Source: Candidatus Hydrogenedentota bacterium (GTDB taxonomy: Bacteria > Hydrogenedentota > Hydrogenedentia > Hydrogenedentales > JAEUWI01). From it: a stretch of 59,766 nucleotides of DNA. The position numbers and the translations under genes were made by a program. The notes under the pieces were generated by a model. That model saw nothing but the letters and a program-made list of their open reading frames with translations. It was not told the origin of the DNA and did not search any database. Location: NCBI GenBank assembly GCA_016182605.1, contig JACPGE010000006.1:1-59766 (forward strand), read 5' to 3'. Position 1 is the stretch's first letter. Every line of letters begins with the position of its first letter. Positions 4,442-42,899 of this stretch are shown here, piece after piece.

Positions 4442-5734
4442 TTAGTGGAACTGCGCCGCTTCCGTGGAGCCTTCCATTGCGGTAACCGAAGACTTGCCTT
4501 CCGTAACCGCATTCGTGATCGCGTCGAAGAAGCCCGTGCCCACGAAGGCCTGGTGCTTTACAGCCGCGAAGCCGCGCTCTTCGGCGGAGAATTCGCGCTG
4601 CTGCATTTCCACGAAGCCGCTCATCTGGCGTTCGCGGTAGGCGTTGGCCAGGTCCCACATGCCGATGTTGAGGTTGTGGAAGCCCGCCAGCGTGATGAAT
4701 TGGAACTTGTAGCCCATGGCGCCCAGTTCGTTCTGGAAACGCGCGATCTCTTCGTCGGAAAGCTTCGCCTTCCAGTTGAAGGACGGGGAGCAGTTGTAGG
4801 CCAGCAGCTTGCCGGGGAACTCGGCATGAATCGCGGCGGCGAACTTCTTCGCGGCGGCCATGTCGGGGGTGCTGGTTTCGCACCACACGAGGTCGGCGTA
4901 GGGCGCGTAGTTGAGGCCGCGTGCGATCGCCTGGTCGATGCCGGGCTTGGTCACGAAGAAACCTTCTTCCGTGCGTTCGCCGGTGCAGAAGGGCCGGTCG
5001 CGCTCGTCAATGTCGCTGGTGAGGAGTCCGGCGGCATCCGCATCGGTGCGGGCGACGATAATGGAGGGCACCCCGGCGACATCGGCCGCGAGGCGGGCCG
5101 CGTTCAGTTTGGTGATGAATTCGCGCGAGGGCACGAGCACCTTGCCGCCCAGGTGGCCGCACTTCTTCGCGGAGGCGAGCTGATCTTCGAAGTGAACGCC
5201 CGCGGCGCCGGCCTGGATCATCTGCAGCATGAGTTCATAGGCGTTGAGCGGGCCGCCGAAGCCGGCTTCGGCGTCGGCCACGATGGGCTGCCAGTAATCG
5301 ACGCGCTTCTTGCCGCTGAGCGACTGCACCTGGTCGCGGCGCATGAGCGCGTTGTTGATGCGCTGCACCACCTGCGGCACGCTGTTCGAGGGATACAGGC
5401 TCTGGTCCGGGTACATCGTGAGGTTGAGGTTGTTGTCGCCCGCCACCTGCCAGCCCGAAAGGTAAATGCCGCGCAGGCCGGCTTCCACCATCTGGATCGC
5501 CTGGTTGCCCGTGAGCGCGCCCAGCGCGTTCACATAGCCGTTTCCGGGCTCGTTGACATAGCCCCACAGCTTGTTGGCCATCTCGGTGGCCACGGTGTAT
5601 TCGATCTTCATGGATCCGCGCAGTTCAAGAACCTTCTCCGCGCTGAAGCTGCGGATCACGCCCTTGAACCGTTCGCTGCGCCAAAGGGTTTCGAGCGCCT
5701 GGACTTCTTTTTGATCGATCAATGGGTTGCTCAT
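4442..5734 (-). CDS. aceA: Isocitrate lyase
   Basis: This 430-aa cytoplasmic enzyme cleaves isocitrate to glyoxylate and succinate, the first step of the glyoxylate bypass. The signature KKCGH is at residues 190-194, with the catalytic Cys at 192; the Mg-binding region ([10 protein letters not shown]-like) precedes it at about 153-161, and the active-site stretch NCSPSFNW comes later. Its length matches the short enterobacterial type (about 434 aa). It lies 36 bp downstream of malate synthase on the same strand, so the two are almost surely one transcript, ending at the terminator at 4380. Regulation by the divergent LysR gene is likely. Confidence 0.97.
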
Positions 5735-5770
5735 AAGTCAATACCTCTCCTGGTTACTGCTTGTTGTGCC

Positions 5771-7372
5771 TTAGTCCAGTTGCTCGTAGGCGGCTAAGGT
5801 CAGGAATTCGGCCAATTCGTTGCTCGCCGTGAAATCGTCAAATAATTTCAGGGCTTCCTTGTACTTGCCGGACGCAAACCGTTGCGCGCCGGCCTCGGCC
5901 TGGATCGCTTCCATCTCTTCCGCGGCTATCGCGCGGACGAGTTCCAGCGTCACCTTCCGCCCATCGGCCAGCTTGGCGTTGGGGTTGTGCACCCACTGCC
6001 AAAGCTGCGTGCGGGAGATCTCCGCGGTGGCGGCGTCTTCCATGAGGTTATACAGCGGCACACAGCCCGTGCCGCCGAGCCAGGCTTCCAGATACTGCAC
6101 ACCGACCTTGATATTCTCGCGAATACCCTTCTCGGTGATATCGCCCTTGGGTATCTCCAGCAGCGCCGCGGCATTCACCTGCACATCGTCGCGCTGCTTG
6201 TCGATCTGATTCGGCTTGCTGCCAAGCACCTTGTCGAACTCTTCCAGCGCTATCGCCACGAGCGCGGGGTGCGCCACCCACGTGCCGTCGTGGCCGTCTT
6301 CCGCTTCGCGCTTCTTGTCCGCGTGCACCTTTGCCATCGCCGCATCGTTCGCCGCGGCGTCGTTCTTGATCGGAATCTGCGCCGCCATCCCGCCTATCGC
6401 AAACGCCCCGCGCTTGTGGCAGGTCTTGATGCACGCCAGCGAATAGGCCCGCATGAACGGGGTCGTCATGCCGACCACCGCGCGGTCGGGCACAAGATAG
6501 TCGCCCTTCTTCGCAAATTTCTTGATGTAACTGAAGATGTAGTCCCAGCGGCCGCAGTTCAGCCCGCCGCTGTGGCGCCGCAGTTCATACAGAATCTCGT
6601 CCATCTGAAACGCCGCGAAAATATGCTCGATGAGCACCGTGCCCTTCACCGTCCCCTGCGGAATCCCAAGCAGTTCCTGCGCCTTCACAAAAATATCGTT
6701 CCACAGCCGCGCCTCGGTGTAGTGCTCCATCTTCGGCAGATAGAGGTACACGCCCGATCCCTGCTTCACCCGCTCCGCCGCGTTGTGAAAGAAGTACAGC
6801 GCAAAATCGAAGATGCTCCCGCTCGCAAGCACCCCATCCACCTTCACATGCTTCTCCGGCAGATGCCAGCCGCGCGGACGCACCATCAGCGTCGCCACCT
6901 TCTCATTCAGCGCATAGCTCTTCCCGTTTGGCAGCGTGAAATCGATCTGGCGGCGCACCGCATCGCGCATGTTGATCTGGCCTTCAAGAACCCCTTCCCA
7001 GGTCGGGCAGTGCGAGTCCTCAAAATCCGCCATATACGTCTTCGCACCCGAGTTGAGCGCGTTAATCACCATCTTCCGGTCCACCGGCCCCGTTATCTCG
7101 ACACGCCGATCCTGAAAATCGGCCGGTACCGGATCCACCTTCCAGTCCCCCTCGCGGATGGACTGGGTCTCGGGGAAAAAGTCGGGCATCTGCCCGGCGT
7201 CCACAGCAACCTGGCGGGTCTTCCGGTTCTGGAGCAGTTCCAGCCGGCGCGAATTGAACTCCCGGTGGAGCGTGGCGTAGAACGCAAGTGCTTCCTGGCT
7301 AAGGATTTCCGCATACTCCGGGGAAAGCGCCCCCAATACCTCCACGCCCGAAGGCACGGCAACTGTGGCCAT
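5771..7372 (-). CDS. aceB: Malate synthase A
   Basis: This 533-aa protein condenses acetyl-CoA with glyoxylate to malate, the second glyoxylate-bypass step. It has the length of the A isoform. Recognisable parts are RPRGWHLPEKH (active-site Arg region), LPKMEHYTEARLWNDIF, and the C-terminal catalytic segment YNLMEDAATAEISR. The start is ATG at 7372, with a purine-rich AAAGGATATGGA upstream. It is the first gene of the aceBA unit and diverges from the LysR gene across 257 bp of regulatory DNA. Confidence 0.97.
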   Translation of the reverse strand: MATVAVPSGVEVLGALSPEYAEILSQEALAFYATLHREFNSRRLELLQNRKTRQVAVDAGQMPDFFPETQSIREGDWKVDPVPADFQDRRVEITGPVDRKMVINALNSGAKTYMADFEDSHCPTWEGVLEGQINMRDAVRRQIDFTLPNGKSYALNEKVATLMVRPRGWHLPEKHVKVDGVLASGSIFDFALYFFHNAAERVKQGSGVYLYLPKMEHYTEARLWNDIFVKAQELLGIPQGTVKGTVLIEHIFAAFQMDEILYELRRHSGGLNCGRWDYIFSYIKKFAKKGDYLVPDRAVVGMTTPFMRAYSLACIKTCHKRGAFAIGGMAAQIPIKNDAAANDAAMAKVHADKKREAEDGHDGTWVAHPALVAIALEEFDKVLGSKPNQIDKQRDDVQVNAAALLEIPKGDITEKGIRENIKVGVQYLEAWLGGTGCVPLYNLMEDAATAEISRTQLWQWVHNPNAKLADGRKVTLELVRAIAAEEMEAIQAEAGAQRFASGKYKEALKLFDDFTASNELAEFLTLAAYEQLD

Positions 7373-7496
7373 GTGAATCCATATCCTTTCAAAGGTTCAA
7401 AGGGGCAGCACGGCACCTCCGGGGGGTGTCACAAGGTGGGATATCCCGTAAGGACCAGCCGAAAAGCCCAGAAAAATACGTGTGTTGACAGGCTTA

Positions 7497-7526
7497 AATG
7501 TATCACCGGGCCTAAGTGATTGACAA
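7497..7526 (-). promoter_or_regulatory. Candidate aceB promoter
   Basis: On the minus strand TTGTCA (7526-7521, 5 of 6) is followed after 18 bp by TACATT (7502-7497, 4 of 6). The palindrome at 7529-7540 lies immediately upstream, the usual position for a LysR activator site. The leader to the aceB ATG would be about 115 nt. Confidence 0.5.
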
Positions 7527-7548
7527 ATTTGAAGCTTCAATGTTTAAT
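7520..7548 (+). promoter_or_regulatory. Sigma-70 type promoter of the LysR gene
   Basis: A perfect TTGACA (7520-7525) and TTTAAT (7543-7548) are separated by 17 bp. The 12-bp palindrome at 7529-7540 occupies the spacer, so a bound regulator would block this promoter, consistent with autorepression. Confidence 0.7.
7529..7540. promoter_or_regulatory. Putative LysR operator
   Basis: TTGAAGCTTCAA is a perfect 12-bp palindrome fitting the T-N11-A style of LysR sites when its flanks are included. It sits inside the spacer of the lysR promoter and next to the -35 of the aceB promoter, so one site could serve autorepression and aceBA control. Confidence 0.6.
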
Positions 7549-7629
7549 ATAGTCTGGGTTTATACTAAAAGCCCCTAGCCCAAATTCAGAGCAATAGTAA
7601 TTTACCGGTAGGTATATAGGCCGTGCGCC

Positions 7630-8547
7630 GTGGCTAAACTCGACTTCCGATACAAGCAAAACCGGCTCCAGCAACTCCGCGGTTTCTGCTATGCCGCCGC
7701 CGATGGAAGTATCTCCAAGGCGGCCGAGCGCATGTACCTCAGCCAGCCTTCAGTGTCCCTGCAAATCCAGGCCCTGGAGCGCGAATTGCACACCGTGCTC
7801 TTCGAACGGCGTGGCCCCAAAATCAAACTGACCCCCGAGGGCGAACTCCTGTTCAGTATCGCCATGCCACTTGTCGAAGGCATCGACCGCATCGAGGATG
7901 ATTTCACCTCGCGCCGGGGCGACGTGGAGAAGGGACGCATCGATCTCGCCGCGGGCTGGTCCACCATCCTCTATGTGCTTCCAGATTATGTCGAACGCTT
8001 CAAGGAGATTCATCCGCAGATCGAACTCAAGCTGCACAATGTTACCGGGCAGGAGGGGCTCGCGCAACTGCGCGCGGGCCACGTCGACTTCGCGGTGGGG
8101 CCCTTGCTCCATGTGCCGGAGGATATCGATTTCTATCCCGTCGTCTCCTATGAGCCGCTCTTGATCACCGAGCCACGCCACCCGCTTGCACAGAAAAAAA
8201 ACTTCACTCTGGAAGACATCAGCCACTACCCCTTCATCCTGCCACCACGCCATCTGAGCACCTGGAGCACGGTGGACTCCGTCTTCAAGGAGCAGGGACT
8301 CCCCTTTGAAGTGGCGATGGAGGTGGGCGGCTGGGAGGTGATCAAGAAATATGTGGAGCTGGGGCTCGGCATCAGCGTGATCATGAGCATTTGCATCACC
8401 GGCAACGAGAAGCTGGCCATCATTCCCGCGAACAAGTACTTCCCCAACCGCACCTACGGCGTGGTGCTGCGCAAGGGCAAGGTGCTCAGCCCGCAGGCGA
8501 AGCGCTTCGTGCAGTTGATGACCCCCGACATCAAGTTCGCGGACTAA
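7630..8547 (+). CDS. LysR-family regulator, probable controller of aceBA
   Basis: This 305-aa LysR-type transcriptional regulator has an N-terminal winged helix (about residues 14-75: GFCYAAADGSISKAAERMYLSQPSVSLQIQ without a break) and a CysB/Cbl-like substrate-binding domain from about 95. The start is GTG at 7630 with only a weak AGG upstream. It is divergent from aceB with the operator between them, so it probably senses a C2/C4 metabolite and controls the glyoxylate shunt. This would be an unusual partner, since enterobacterial aceBAK uses IclR/FruR/ArcA. The stop codon TAA lies within the CTAA at the edge of the repeat element that follows. Confidence 0.93.
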   Translation: MAKLDFRYKQNRLQQLRGFCYAAADGSISKAAERMYLSQPSVSLQIQALERELHTVLFERRGPKIKLTPEGELLFSIAMPLVEGIDRIEDDFTSRRGDVEKGRIDLAAGWSTILYVLPDYVERFKEIHPQIELKLHNVTGQEGLAQLRAGHVDFAVGPLLHVPEDIDFYPVVSYEPLLITEPRHPLAQKKNFTLEDISHYPFILPPRHLSTWSTVDSVFKEQGLPFEVAMEVGGWEVIKKYVELGLGISVIMSICITGNEKLAIIPANKYFPNRTYGVVLRKGKVLSPQAKRFVQLMTPDIKFAD

Positions 8548-28123: not shown

Positions 28124-28740
28124 GCATAGGACATTGCGCGTAATTAGGTCACGAAGTTGGTGCTACCAAACTCTGTTTTAAATTGCGTTCATCTTGGCAT
28201 ATTTGGTTCGGCGCGAGTCCCTCGCCCCGGCGGCTGGCAGCGCAACCAAGAGTTTTGCCTCTTCCAGCCGCGGAGCGGAGGCTGGCAGCGCAGCCAAGAG
28301 ATTTTCGTCCTCCAGCCGCGGAGCGGCGGCAGCAATTAGCCTGGGGCGTGAGCCCCAGGAATCCATCCATCAAGACATCCGGAATCCGCGAAGCGGATGG
28401 CACCGAATACGTCCACAATTTTTTGCGCGATCCAGAGCATGGGTACCAAGCCCAGTGAAAAACCCACGGGAATTCCGTGCCACGATTGGGTATTCCGGCG
28501 GCGGATCGGCATGCAGTCCATCGAATACATTTAACACCAAGTCTGGGAATGCAGCGCTGTTTGTGCCATCCGCTTCGCGGATTCCACAATGGGGAGATGC
28601 CAGTTTCTGGGGCTCACGCCCCAGGCTAATTGCTGTCGCTCCTCCGGAGCTGAGGAAACAAATTGAAGTCACAAAACCGAGTGGATGCAGCCAAACTCCA
28701 TTCGAATTTGCATTTATTCTGGCATACTTATTCTGACGCG
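28124..28740. repeat. Gene-free repeat region with tandem units and a long inverted repeat
   Basis: Two tandem 48-bp units (28232-28279 and 28280-28327, GGCTGGCAGCGCA start) are followed by an interrupted inverted repeat. Arm A 28330-28358 (contains TTAGCCTGGGGCGTGAGC) pairs with 28609-28637, and arm C 28381-28403 (GGAATCCGCGAAGCGGATGG) pairs with 28563-28585, leaving a spacer of about 160 bp. The left (28160-28216) and right (28687-28742) margins are loosely similar direct copies (CCAAACTC ... TGGCATA). Open frames here are all artefacts of the repeats. It could form a large RNA hairpin upstream of the sigma-factor gene. Confidence 0.7.
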
Positions 28741-28817
28741 AATATTCCGGGCCGCCTTGTCACCTTTTGCCCCATTCGGTCACTACCTTCTAGAATGAAC
28801 CAGAAGGAACACCGCAC

Positions 28818-31800
28818 ATGAGCGCCGAGTTGGAACAATGGGTACAAGCCAGCCTGAAAGGCGACAAACAGGCCTTCGGACACATCGTGGAACGCTACCA
28901 GGGCGCCGTCTGCGCCATGGCCTACAGCGTCACGGGCGATCTGCGCCAGAGCGAAGATCTCGCGCAGGAAACCTTTCTCGTGGCGTGGCAGAAACTCGCC
29001 AGCCTCCGCAAACGCGAGTCCCTCCCCGCGTGGATGTGCAGCATCGCGCGCAACCTCTCCCGCGAATGGCTCCGCAAACAGTCCAGGCTGCCCACCGTAC
29101 CCCTGGAACATGCCGGTGCAGCCGCTGCAGTAGCCGAGACCGCCGAAGAGGCCGGCCGCGCGCGTGATCGCGCCGATGCCGTGTGGACCGCCCTCGCCGC
29201 CATTCCGGAGACGTACCGCGAACCCCTCGTCCTCTACTACCGCCACGACAAGTCGATCCGTCACATCGCGGAGGCCCTTGGCCTTACGGAAGCCTGCGTA
29301 AAACAACGCCTCTCCCGCGGGCGCAACATGCTCCGCGCCGAAGTCGCACGCATGGTCGAAGACACCCTTGAAGACACGCGGCCTGGAAAGAGATTCACGG
29401 CAGGCGTCCTCGCCGTCTTGCCCGCGCTGCCACACGGCGCGCACCTGCCCACACAACCGCACGAACACTGGACGGGACCCGTCTCCTCCACTCCGCTGGT
29501 GGCTATGAAGTTTCCGGCACTCGCGGCAGCACTCCTCCTCGTGCTCGCGGGCGGCTGGGCTGTCAAACAGTACTACGCACCCCCTGACAAGACTTCCGAA
29601 GACACCAGCGCCGTGGCGCTTGCTGGCACCGCACCGGCAGTGCCGTCTACGCCCGGCACCGCTCAGGCCGAGGCCCCGCTCAACACCATGTCTCCTCCAT
29701 CGGCAGCCACTGCCGCACCGTCCACCGGCATAACCGTCACCGGCCAGACGGTGTTTCGCGGAGGGGACACACCTGCCAGCAACATGCGCGTCTTGCTGGC
29801 GTCCGATGATCGGACCCGTTACTCGACCTTATCCAACGATACTGGCCATTTTTCCTTCGAAAACGTGACGGGGGCACAATGCGCAGTAGTGGCCTATGAC
29901 GCCGCTTACGACGAGATTCCAGAAGACGACTTTCGATCGGATCATATCGGGGTGGAACTGGCCAACGACTCAAGCCGGAGCAGCGTGCGTGTGGAAGTTC
30001 CCGCCAGGGGCGGGCGCATTACGGGCCGCGTCCACGATTCGGTTACCGATGCGCCGCTCCCCGGCGTGACGGTTTCCGCCATCGTACCCGGAAAGCCATC
30101 TCCGGCCGGAATCAGCAATAGTGATGGGCGTTTCGAAATACTTGGCGTGCCCGCAGGCACCAGTCTCGTCCGAATCGACAATGAAAGCCCTGTCTTTGCA
30201 AGCGACCAAATCAACAAGATGCTTTCGGTCCACCTGGAAGAGAATGGCGCCGCAGAACTTGATTTCGCGATCGATACCTCCATGCCCGTTGAAGGCAGAG
30301 TCGTGAATGCCGAGGGAAAGGCCGTGTCCAAGGCCTGGATCAGTGCCGACCGGTCCCTTGCGGACGGCAGCGACCGCATGTACTGCCGCGTACGCACGCG
30401 CGACGACGGCACGTTCACTTTGTGGGGCGCGCTCGGCGGCGATCGTGTTGTTCTGGTCGCGGACCACGAAGAACTTTCGTCCCCGTACCGCGTACTCAAC
30501 CTGATTCCAGGCAAGCCCCCCGAAGCCGTCTCCCTCACGCTGGGTGCGCGGGCGCGTGTCGTGGGGCGTTTTGTGGACGAGAGCGGCGCCGCAATTAAAG
30601 CAAACTTCTGGAGCCGCCCCACCCTTCCCGAAGGCGATGGAAACTGGCGCGGCCAGTCGGAGGATCCAGCGTCCACCTTTGAAGCAACCATGCCCCCTGG
30701 AGACTATGAAATTAAGGGGATGCTGCCCGGCGGCGACTTCGGCGTGGAGCAGCCGGTAAAGGTGATTCACGTCGCGGACAGCGGCGGCGCAGCAGACTTG
30801 ACGGTGAAAGTAAACGCAATAGGGGAGCTGAGCGGCAAGTTTTCTCTTCGCGGGACCTTGACCGATGAATCCAAAATGCCTCTGCCGAATCAGCGAGTCT
30901 ATATTTCGGGTGGCGACGTGAGCACCCGGGGCTCTTTCCACGAAACCTACACGAGCGAGGACGGTGTGTTTTCTTTCGATCGATTGTTGGATGGCCGTTA
31001 TCAATTGCATGCCACCCTGGGTGACCCGTACGAAGATTTCGCAGGCTTCGAAAACTTCCATCCCGCAGACTCGCCGGTGGTGACTATCGTGGCGCGGCAT
31101 GCCGCAAGGCTGACCGGGCAGGTTACGGATGCCGAAACCGGCGCGCCAGTCACCCGATTTGTGACAGAGTACGGCGCGCTCATGCCCGATGGCCGGGAAA
31201 ACCGCTGGGACAAGTTCGAAGTTGTCTCAGATGTCGGTGGCTTCGATCTGCGCGCCCGGCTTGACGAGGACTGGTACCTGCGCGTTTCCGCCGACGGTTA
31301 CACCACGAAAACGCAGACGGGCGATGCGCTTTCCGCAGGCCAGCGCATGGACGCCATCGGCCTGCGCCTCGAAAAAGGAATCGTGGTTCACGGCATGGTC
31401 ACGAATGCGGAGGGCGCTCCGGAAGCCAATGCCTTCATCTATTACAACACGGATGTCTTCGACACGTTCCGCCAACCTCAGCAGTACGCCGCGGCACAAT
31501 CGGGAAATGACGGCCGATTTGAGATCCGATCCTTACCTGAAGACGCGACCGTACTTTATGCCCGGAAAACGGGATTCGCCGTGGCGCAATGCGCCGTAGC
31601 GGAAAACACTACGCTGGTCCTGGAGATCGGCGGCAGCATAGAAGGCCACGCGAGCGTGGGAGGAATGGCGCTGCCCGGCAGCTTGTCCGTCACTGCGATA
31701 AACCAAACCCTGGAAGAACGCGTGCAATCCCGCGTTGATGAGACCGGTTTCTACCAATGCGCCGGACTCATGGATGCCCCATACCTGATCAACGTCCATT

Positions 31801-32165
31801 GGAAGGACGACTACACGCACCAACACTCGGACTACACGCTTACCACGGCCATTGACGCGGTGAACGGCATGGCGAAGGTATTGGATATTCGCATCCCGGA
31901 TGGGAATGCGGCCATAGAAGGTGTGGTCTCGCGGGCGGGCGTACCGGTGGCGGATGTCACCGTGGCGTGCGAGTTCTCCGGCTGCAGAGTTTACGTGAGT
32001 TCCGACGATACCGGGGCCTATCGCGTCGAGGGCCTCCCTGCTGGGCAAGCAACCCTCATTGTATACAACAACGATGGAAACACTGCCGGACAATCCGCGC
32101 TAACCGTCGAGGCCGCATCCGATGCCACTGTCACACAGGACCTGGCACTGCCAGAAATGGAATAG
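28818..32165 (+). CDS. ECF sigma factor fused through a membrane helix to carboxypeptidase-regulatory-like domains
   Basis: A 1115-aa fusion. Residues 5-92 are sigma region 2 (VERYQGAVCAMAY, DLAQETFLVAWQKL, WMCSIARNLSREWLRK) and 120-180 are region 4 with its helix-turn-helix (PETYREPLVLYY, IAEALGLTEACVKQRLSRGR). A hydrophobic helix at 233-249 (PALAAALLLVLAGGWAV) follows, then an Ala/Pro/Thr linker to about 303 and a string of about eight CarboxypepD_reg-like beta domains (pattern G-x-V...G-x-P...DGxF...LPxG) to the end. In this topology the sigma part is cytoplasmic and the beta string outside, so one polypeptide could sense and transcribe without a separate anti-sigma factor. ECF factors with long C-terminal extensions are known from Planctomycetes; the ligand and target genes here are unknown. 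AAGGA precedes the ATG. Confidence 0.93.
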   Translation: MSAELEQWVQASLKGDKQAFGHIVERYQGAVCAMAYSVTGDLRQSEDLAQETFLVAWQKLASLRKRESLPAWMCSIARNLSREWLRKQSRLPTVPLEHAGAAAAVAETAEEAGRARDRADAVWTALAAIPETYREPLVLYYRHDKSIRHIAEALGLTEACVKQRLSRGRNMLRAEVARMVEDTLEDTRPGKRFTAGVLAVLPALPHGAHLPTQPHEHWTGPVSSTPLVAMKFPALAAALLLVLAGGWAVKQYYAPPDKTSEDTSAVALAGTAPAVPSTPGTAQAEAPLNTMSPPSAATAAPSTGITVTGQTVFRGGDTPASNMRVLLASDDRTRYSTLSNDTGHFSFENVTGAQCAVVAYDAAYDEIPEDDFRSDHIGVELANDSSRSSVRVEVPARGGRITGRVHDSVTDAPLPGVTVSAIVPGKPSPAGISNSDGRFEILGVPAGTSLVRIDNESPVFASDQINKMLSVHLEENGAAELDFAIDTSMPVEGRVVNAEGKAVSKAWISADRSLADGSDRMYCRVRTRDDGTFTLWGALGGDRVVLVADHEELSSPYRVLNLIPGKPPEAVSLTLGARARVVGRFVDESGAAIKANFWSRPTLPEGDGNWRGQSEDPASTFEATMPPGDYEIKGMLPGGDFGVEQPVKVIHVADSGGAADLTVKVNAIGELSGKFSLRGTLTDESKMPLPNQRVYISGGDVSTRGSFHETYTSEDGVFSFDRLLDGRYQLHATLGDPYEDFAGFENFHPADSPVVTIVARHAARLTGQVTDAETGAPVTRFVTEYGALMPDGRENRWDKFEVVSDVGGFDLRARLDEDWYLRVSADGYTTKTQTGDALSAGQRMDAIGLRLEKGIVVHGMVTNAEGAPEANAFIYYNTDVFDTFRQPQQYAAAQSGNDGRFEIRSLPEDATVLYARKTGFAVAQCAVAENTTLVLEIGGSIEGHASVGGMALPGSLSVTAINQTLEERVQSRVDETGFYQCAGLMDAPYLINVHWKDDYTHQHSDYTLTTAIDAVNGMAKVLDIRIPDGNAAIEGVVSRAGVPVADVTVACEFSGCRVYVSSDDTGAYRVEGLPAGQATLIVYNNDGNTAGQSALTVEAASDATVTQDLALPEME

Positions 32166-40814: not shown

Positions 40815-42899
40815 TTATTCCCCACTTTTGTAGGCGAAATCGATTCCGCCAGCAAGATCGTTGTGGCATGAACCGCAACTGTTCGGCAACTGCCTGTTCA
40901 CCGTAGTGCTGTTAAACAATGCCTGACTTTCTGCCGGTGTGATGACGTCAAATATATGGGACGAGATATCGCCTCGGATTCGACCGCCCGACGGCTGTCC
41001 TGCGTCATTTACAGATTCGTGAATGAAACGCGACTGGCTGGCTGCGGTCTTAGGCATATGGCATGAAGTGCAAAGGCCCGCTCCTCCGGTCGCCGTTTCA
41101 ATAGCTATACCGGCGAAGTTTTGCGGGTCATAACCGGAAACCATGCCCCCATTGGTCCGCATATGCTGGTAAACCGCCTCGGCTTCGTCCTGTATCGAAT
41201 AGTTTTCCCCAAGCCCGAACGTCCATTGCGCATGGCAACTCATGCATAATTCGTTTGTTGTGTTGTTCTTGGCGAGACTTGGTCCGATGTCGCGATTGTG
41301 CATATTGTGACATTCACTGCATCCCATGAGCAGATATTCGTTCTTGTAATGTTTCGACTTCTGCAAGTCGACGAATTGCTGATGATGTTGGCGGGAGTGT
41401 TTGGGCGTATCTTCATATACGCCTGGATTGTCGGTGTGGAAATCAGCGGCGAATTCATCGTACCCGATCCCCGGTTTGGGAAACTCCAGGATATCCGTTC
41501 CCTTGGAAGGAAACTCAACGTGATCCTCTGAACCGGTGAACACGCCTTTTCCAACGCCCCGCGTGTGGCAGCGGCCACAAAGCATGGCGTCGCGTTCGGC
41601 AGACAGGAACCTGGAGAGGACGAGTTTGGGACGGTTACCCTCCGAAACGTGTTCGGAGCCTGGTCCGTGGCAACTCTCGCATCCAATGCCCATTTCGTCT
41701 TTTCTCCCATCACCGTCGTAATCAATGATACCAGCCGCGTCGGTTGTATTGGCTGCGTCGGCATGATAGAGGCCGTTGAAGTCCCGGGTAAGACTGGTGC
41801 CGGTAAAGTGGCAACCGGCGCAATTCAGATCAAAGGATTTGTTCTTCGCCGGCGCTTTTGCTGGCCCGTCATTAAGGCTCGGGGGACCCCAATTGCCATG
41901 GTTGTACGGGTGAAACGGCTCCGCACCCGCCTGCAAATTTTCATCGTATTGGATGGGCAGGATGTAATAGGAGGAGTCATTGCCTGCGGGATCGGCGTCG
42001 TAGCTGCCATCACTTTTTACACGCGTGACCCAACGTTCCTTGTATAAACCATGTCCGCCAAAGGTGAAGTCGACGTAATACCGTTCCGAAAATACTGTCC
42101 CATCGGGGCTGGAGAACTGCATGAAATAGGCCGCGGCATCCTCCTCAAATCCAAGCCAGATGTCGTAATTGTCTGTCTCGTTGGCAAGCTGAAACATTGG
42201 ATACTCTGCTCTGCTAATGTGGAGACCGTATTCATCTTCGAGGCTCGTATTGTCACTATCATTCCCGTTCTTGAAGTAGATGTGGGCGAAATTTGCGCCC
42301 GGCAGATCGCTCAGGTCTTGAATTGAACTGATCTGATCGGGCGCCCGGTAGACGAGGGCATGCAGGGTCTTCTTGTAATCACTGACGTCTGTCGCGACGA
42401 CGCCGTCGTGACAAAGGAGACACACGGCCGAACCGACATAGCGGGCCGCCGTTGATGGTTGTTGAGAAAGCACGACATTTACTGATGTGGCTTTGGCATC
42501 GGCAATTTCAATTGTAGTCCTGGATGTGTCACCACCGGGAAGAACGGTGGGCGCATCAACTTCGGAAGGGAAAGCATGCACAAAGTAACTTCCCGCCGAA
42601 ACGCCTTCGATCGTAAATTCGCCGTCGTTATTTGTCTGGGCGGTGTAGAGACTCGACGCCGCAAGGGTTTCCAAGGGCGTCATGCCGGGCGATTCTGCCA
42701 CTAAAAGGGCATTCACCAAGGCGACAGTAGCATTTACGAGGGGATAGTCAACTGGCGAGTCATGTTTTTTTACCGTTCCCGAGACCGTTCCACCCTCGAC
42801 AGGGTCTGGATCTGGCCCCGGACTTGGGCACCCCATCAATAGCAGCAAAACGAGTACCGTGGCCACCAATCGACTCAAACCGTTGTAGCGCTCCATCAT
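40815..42899 (-). CDS. Octaheme c-type cytochrome lipoprotein
   Basis: This 694-aa protein has a lipoprotein signal (VATVLVLLLLMGC, lipobox Cys24). Residues 36-145 form a carboxypeptidase-regulatory-like beta domain (GGTVSGTVKKHDSPVDYPLV, NNDGEFTIEGVSAGSYFV). The rest is a multihaem region with eight CxxCH sites: CLLCH (160-164), CAGCH, CESCH, CGRCH, CSECH, CMSCH, CTSCH and CGSCH. Spacing resembles cytochrome c554-type proteins. It is probably anchored outside the inner membrane and carries or exchanges electrons; the donor and acceptor are unknown, and no partner cytochrome gene is adjacent. GGGAGG precedes the ATG. Confidence 0.92.
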   Translation of the reverse strand: MMERYNGLSRLVATVLVLLLLMGCPSPGPDPDPVEGGTVSGTVKKHDSPVDYPLVNATVALVNALLVAESPGMTPLETLAASSLYTAQTNNDGEFTIEGVSAGSYFVHAFPSEVDAPTVLPGGDTSRTTIEIADAKATSVNVVLSQQPSTAARYVGSAVCLLCHDGVVATDVSDYKKTLHALVYRAPDQISSIQDLSDLPGANFAHIYFKNGNDSDNTSLEDEYGLHISRAEYPMFQLANETDNYDIWLGFEEDAAAYFMQFSSPDGTVFSERYYVDFTFGGHGLYKERWVTRVKSDGSYDADPAGNDSSYYILPIQYDENLQAGAEPFHPYNHGNWGPPSLNDGPAKAPAKNKSFDLNCAGCHFTGTSLTRDFNGLYHADAANTTDAAGIIDYDGDGRKDEMGIGCESCHGPGSEHVSEGNRPKLVLSRFLSAERDAMLCGRCHTRGVGKGVFTGSEDHVEFPSKGTDILEFPKPGIGYDEFAADFHTDNPGVYEDTPKHSRQHHQQFVDLQKSKHYKNEYLLMGCSECHNMHNRDIGPSLAKNNTTNELCMSCHAQWTFGLGENYSIQDEAEAVYQHMRTNGGMVSGYDPQNFAGIAIETATGGAGLCTSCHMPKTAASQSRFIHESVNDAGQPSGGRIRGDISSHIFDVITPAESQALFNSTTVNRQLPNSCGSCHNDLAGGIDFAYKSGE

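Follow-up and report, generated by a model that had tools for sequence, protein, structure and literature searches.

A predicted membrane-tethered ECF sigma factor carrying nine beta-sandwich domains in Candidatus Hydrogenedentota

The passage from signal to transcription through an ECF sigma factor normally requires a sigma/anti-sigma pair. In the window analyzed here, a stretch of 59,766 nucleotides from a Candidatus Hydrogenedentota bacterium, the list of open reading frames contains an intact single frame of 1115 aa (28818–32165, + strand) that apparently unites sensing and transcription in one chain, which raises the question of how such a sigma factor is controlled. The reading frame, its domains and its fused homologues together describe a membrane-tethered ECF sigma factor, an architecture of which we are highly confident.

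Domain layout and membrane topology

A Pfam search of the 1115-aa protein located sigma-70 region 2 (PF04542, Sigma70_r2) at residues 23–90 (28884–29087, +; E 7e-15) and region 4 (PF08281, Sigma70_r4_2) at residues 120–171 (29175–29330, +; E 5e-11), as an earlier note on this DNA had claimed for the N-terminal part. Regions 1.1 and 3 were not among the Pfam matches, which is the layout of an ECF factor. Against NCBIfam, the sigma part scored 84.3 bits with the sigma70-ECF superfamily model, above its cut-off of 42.9, and 88.7 bits with TIGR02989, the Rhodopirellula/Verrucomicrobium sigma family, which is below the curated cut-off of 124.55. When 54 such sigma parts, here called heads, were aligned, Q50, F53 and W72 of region 2 were invariant and R164, L165 and R169 of region 4 almost so. 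The AlphaFold2 model of the head has a mean pLDDT of 82.6 and a pTM of 0.61; that of the whole chain (mean pLDDT 79.5) runs from sigma 2/4 through a helical element, disorder, a membrane helix and a disordered stalk to the beta domains. According to Foldseek, the head model resembles ECF sigma structures solved with anti-sigmas, with an rmsd above 12 Å across both domains.

The beta domains occupy residues 305–1115 (29730–32162, +) and were recognized as CarboxypepD_reg/transthyretin-like sandwiches by Pfam, by their AlphaFold2 strands and by Foldseek. Pfam reported seven significant CarboxypepD_reg stretches (PF13620, E 2e-46, 156.4 bits against a gathering cut-off of 32.3). The modeled strands, from which we drew the borders, give nine domains of about 90 aa each rather than the eight or so previously estimated. 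The closest folds to the array are the Bacillus anthracis TIE protein and pilin subunits. Arrays of this type are usually secreted or anchored and carry no sigma head; the 1115-aa protein shares the outside array with such surface proteins and differs from them in its head. A profile search found 104 CarboxypepD_reg matches in the same genome. Elsewhere in the window, a multihaem CXXCH cytochrome (40815–42899, −) has a weak N-terminal match to the family. At another locus (L123, G000:C112:6843-10557), the head and array parts occur in split form: behind a standalone sigma gene comes a second gene, which encodes a CarboxypepD_reg array with a signal anchor.

Between head and array, the only strong hydrophobic stretch of the protein lies at residues 227–245 (Kyte-Doolittle mean 2.15). 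AlphaFold2 draws a membrane helix at 233–250 in the head model and at 236–246 in the full-length model, so the single helix reported earlier at 233–249 is confirmed; taking also the segment found at the same place in relatives, we set the transmembrane helix at about residues 227–250 (29496–29567, +). It is followed by a stalk rich in Pro, Ala, Ser and Thr (residues 251–304; 29568–29729, +), disordered by its composition and by a pLDDT below 50 in the full-length model. A hydrophobic segment falls within residues 190–300 in 64 of 67 related fused frames of at least 350 aa, and the remaining three are fusions to soluble domains. The position of the helix is thus fixed among relatives, whereas its letters are poorly kept (28% identity).

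Positive charges flank the helix on both sides, so the positive-inside rule says little about its orientation. Support comes instead from sigma-less arrays (L032, L034, L036, L038 and L124, the last in the same genome as the 1115-aa protein), which are homologous over most of their length and stand directly behind an N-terminal hydrophobic anchor. An N-terminal signal anchor exports whatever comes after it, and a sigma head needs the cytoplasm to function. An array outside the membrane and a head in the cytoplasm are therefore strongly implied by homology, and the nine-domain array very probably lies outside. The one-chain design and the inside/outside topology proposed in the earlier note are supported in this way; that the array also senses something, as the note had it, is suggested by analogy with the known systems discussed below.

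Exchange of sensors and a conserved juxtamembrane element

The protein is not alone. Its genome yields 33 Sigma70_r2 matches in a profile search, about 11 of which sit in frames 550–1120 aa long that have a hydrophobic segment around residues 225–270. Across 68 genomes of the phylum, 111 places match the head at E values up to 1e-20, and by our count 81 of them, including all of the 31 best, have a reading frame that stays open for 400 aa or more. Fusion is the rule for this head type, and the possibility raised earlier, that sigma part and array might prove to be separate genes in related genomes, does not hold: homologues L025, L027, L031 and L058 are single frames and that of genome G009 is broken by contig ends only. 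A scan of named genomes with a poor query matched just an ordinary Mucilaginibacter ECF factor.

Heads and arrays do not travel together. The closest head (L053) is 66% identical over 205 aa, but its array has no detectable BLAST match to that of the 1115-aa protein. Conversely, the closest arrays (G009, L024 and L061, 39% identical; L024 and L061, each at a contig end, are apparently one gene) sit on a sigma head of a different class, 22% identical and with its own linker. A close head with an unrelated array, and a close array on another sigma class, point to separate histories for the two parts. The C-terminal parts of close-head proteins vary among CarboxypepD_reg arrays, leucine-rich repeats and several membrane helices. 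The one-chain design is present in about 11 copies in one genome and throughout an uncultured phylum, with heads and sensors exchanged. The head could be used as an interchangeable output part for sensors that lie outside.

Several fusions stand out among the relatives. In three genomes (L101, 2499-3740 −; L104, 2756-4012 +; L147, G054:C239:9696-10931 +), an ECF head is joined to the catalytic core of the phenylalanyl-tRNA synthetase alpha chain. These proteins are 38–55% identical and the two examined are without a membrane helix; L101 keeps the motif-3-like GLGLERLAML. Judging from sequence, they may be cytosolic sensors of amino acids or tRNA charging built into a sigma factor, and our literature search found no description of a fusion of sigma to a PheRS core. 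In L086 (469-2079 −), a single chain holds a sigma head together with Pkinase and FliG_C-like domains, and L149 and L150 are frames of similar length. Tandem genes at L096 (3181-6378 + and 6643-9579 +) and L097 (2132-4942 − and 5100-8330 −) encode sigma heads with a membrane helix, with leucine-rich repeats in both of the C-terminal parts scanned.

What the close heads share beyond the sigma domains is a short element between sigma region 4 and the membrane (residues 173–200; 29334–29417, +), delimited by motif conservation and the head model. Its motif, VExxLxxTxPxxxFxxxV at residues 180–197, has V180, E181, L184, T187, P189, F193 and V197 invariant among the 13 closest heads. Mean pairwise identity is 61.8% over these residues, compared with 53.8% in sigma 2 and 58.3% in sigma 4, and drops to about 28% in the stretch after the motif and in the membrane helix; the motif is conserved at least as much as the sigma domain itself. 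In the head model, a helix (158–186) extends beyond sigma 4 and is followed by a turn and a short helix (191–200), with a pLDDT of about 85–89 that is lower in the full-length model.

Behind sigma 4, looser forms of the motif also occur in the PheRS-like core fusions L101, where it reads VEETLKHNVPDERFSQKVIAELL, and L104, as well as in the kinase fusion L086; standalone ECF factors of the same genomes stop short of it. Its presence in soluble fusions and absence from standalone factors lead us to infer that the element cooperates with the sigma domain rather than serving as a membrane or protease signal, its most likely role being that of an inhibitor within the chain or of a helix that couples head and sensor. 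It may mask contacts with RNA polymerase; the AlphaFold2 head model, with its pTM of 0.61, speaks neither for nor against this. We found no description of a conserved element in this position in the literature on single-chain ECF factors. A wider reading, which we put forward tentatively and with more doubt than belief, is that the element is a general in-cis switch through which every sensor, outside or inside, acts. On the same tentative footing, one head type would plug into beta arrays, leucine-rich repeats, multi-helix parts, a PheRS core or a kinase. If true, the phylum would possess a widespread one-component sigma toolkit in place of anti-sigma pairs.

A predicted promoter upstream of the gene

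Upstream of the gene lies a predicted ECF promoter, composed of a −35 element TGTCAC (28758–28763, +), recognized by its recurrence upstream of close head genes, and, 16 nt past it, a −10 element TCAC (28780–28783, +), assigned from a bipartite motif in the close heads. A TAGAAT element downstream of the −10 (28791–28796, +) was read from the upstream sequences and also precedes many heads of a second class, class B. Of the 14 close head genes, 13 have TGT(C/A)AC upstream, 46 to 115 bp from the start. Under a stricter choice of start and a 120-bp limit it is found before 12 of 14, against a mean of 0.58 in shuffled sequences, counts that are not independent of one another because the sequences are related. 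The −35 together with a −10-like box was present in nine of the 14 (shuffled mean 0.06); the motif was spotted by eye before it was tested against shuffles, so discovery and test are partly dependent on each other. By eye, the rest of the upstream DNA among close heads appears unrelated, and none of 12 class B fused heads has TGT(C/A)AC. The −10 of relatives is CGAC, CGTC or similar, and the TCAC found here departs from these commoner forms. Unsupervised counting of dyads in the upstream regions gave nothing exceeding shuffles.

The motif is of a known type, as the ECF41 promoter is TGTCACA-N16-CGTC (PMC3426412). Recurrence of the −35 box before close head genes implies autoregulation, and we think it likely, from these sequences, that the head drives its own transcription. 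Further targets were sought with the strict pattern TGTCACC-N16-18-ACT-N3-8-TAG, which occurs once in the 6.76 Mb genome, before this gene, and the regulon search of that genome returned no other site. In ten genomes the promoter pattern gave seven matches, the same number as a reversed-pattern control; four of the seven lie directly before sigma heads. Before class B heads, for example L005, L009, L024 and L025, a (G)GTAGAAT-like element comes soon after a GTC-containing box and may be part of the promoter of that other sigma class.

Control of the tethered head

Single-chain transmembrane ECF factors are already known. IutY of Pseudomonas putida (ECF243; PMC5411451, PMC8999054) likewise joins a cytosolic ECF sigma, one membrane segment and an outside part, with no separate anti-sigma, and its sigma is freed by Prc and RseP (PMC5411451). 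It differs in being about 374 aa long, in the anti-sigma domain of its periplasmic part, which belongs to the cell-surface-signalling (FecR-like) family, and in having an outer-membrane receptor gene as partner. The 1115-aa protein has nine CarboxypepD_reg domains instead; Pfam detected no FecR domain in it, and there is no TonB-dependent receptor gene among the scanned neighbours. SCO4117 of Streptomyces coelicolor, of the ECF52 group, shows the same succession of sigma, membrane region, Pro-rich stretch and outside module, together with evidence of autoregulation, but a zinc-finger anti-sigma domain precedes its membrane region, its outside module is a carbohydrate-binding one, and its group is reported in Actinobacteria only (PMC5826349). 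Pfam found neither a zf-HC2 domain between sigma 4 and the membrane of the 1115-aa protein, where AlphaFold2 places the helical element, nor a C-terminal carbohydrate-binding module. ECF41 factors resemble it in a C-terminal extension that acts in cis and in the −35 TGTCAC, 16-nt spacer and CGTC-type −10, but they are soluble, their extension is SnoaL-like and they regulate neighbouring COE genes (PMC3426412). More ECF groups with membrane extensions have been reviewed, with proteolytic release predicted (PMC8999054). Our literature search found no description of a sigma factor fused to CarboxypepD_reg arrays. What sets this family apart is the combination of no FecR or zinc-finger domain, a conserved helical element, very large interchangeable sensors and a phylum-wide expansion.

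We propose a one-component, self-inhibited tethered ECF sigma factor that is released by proteolysis in two steps and regulates its own gene. Architecture, conserved element and promoter give this explanation its basis in the DNA, and IutY, SCO4117 and candidate proteases suggest the sensing, inhibition and proteolysis; as a whole we would hold it with belief and doubt in about equal measure. At rest, the tether would stop the head from using RNA polymerase productively, aided by the juxtamembrane element in the role of an anti-sigma within the chain. The array would feel a surface ligand, a contact or the state of the envelope, and the stalk would become exposed to a site-1 protease, after which an RseP-type site-2 protease would cut within the membrane helix. 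The freed head would then transcribe its own gene from the TGTCAC promoter, a positive feedback, and further targets. The genome encodes an M50 protein resembling RseP, which has HExxH and several membrane helices and is a candidate site-2 protease, and four S41 (Prc family) matches as site-1 candidates, which prove little because M50 and S41 proteases are almost universal. No cleavage site is recognizable in the 1115-aa protein, and we regard proteolytic release, by analogy, as an evenly balanced proposition. With the conserved 18-residue motif and the predicted self-promoter, the control step is open to direct testing.

The head might also be controlled by conformation, recruiting RNA polymerase while still bound to the membrane, as ToxR/CadC-type one-component regulators do, with the array shifting the juxtamembrane element through the membrane helix. 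The element matches the sigma domain in conservation, and a related one is found in soluble fusions to the PheRS-like core and the kinase, where no membrane cut is needed; being kept there, it may serve for coupling in general. Neither a long, disordered stalk nor a single, poorly conserved helix would make a good rigid coupler, however, and the evidence from the two relatives in kind that have been studied by experiment favours processing (IutY, PMC5411451; SCO4117, PMC5826349), which makes this alternative possible but unlikely. Another view, distinctly less probable again, takes the array for an anchor or part of a surface structure and the element for a structural extension of sigma 4, with activity governed by how strongly the gene is expressed or by constitutive trimming. 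Structural modules of the CarboxypepD_reg type are common, and numerous in this very genome (104 matches), similar arrays stand alone behind a signal anchor, and the fold matches of the array are adhesins and pilins. Yet many unrelated outside modules are found on heads that keep the element and the promoter, which fits sensor swapping better.

Least probable, in our opinion, is that an unlinked anti-sigma controls the protein and the fusion serves only to localize it. The genome does contain four matches to zf-HC2, the classical zinc anti-sigma, few beside about 11 fusions, which speaks for the self-inhibited factor proposed above; at least two of these candidates directly adjoin a standalone sigma gene (C110 and C3), and none adjoins 28818–32165. 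Domain scans of the neighbouring genes agree with the earlier statement that no anti-sigma gene is adjacent: PSCyt1/PSCyt2/PSD1 and DUF1501 genes lie upstream and a convergent lactate permease downstream. No link to polysaccharide genes emerged: homologues do not share their neighbours, and the genome contains a single copy of the promoter pattern.

A functional link to the PSD1 and DUF1501 genes was considered and rejected; their homologues were not found beside the fused homologues, so we take the neighbourhood as incidental. The DNA upstream of the gene also holds a non-coding repeat element (window 28228–28652) with 49-nt inverted arms (28313–28361 and 28604–28652), an inner perfect inverted repeat of 23 nt and a direct repeat of 48 nt.
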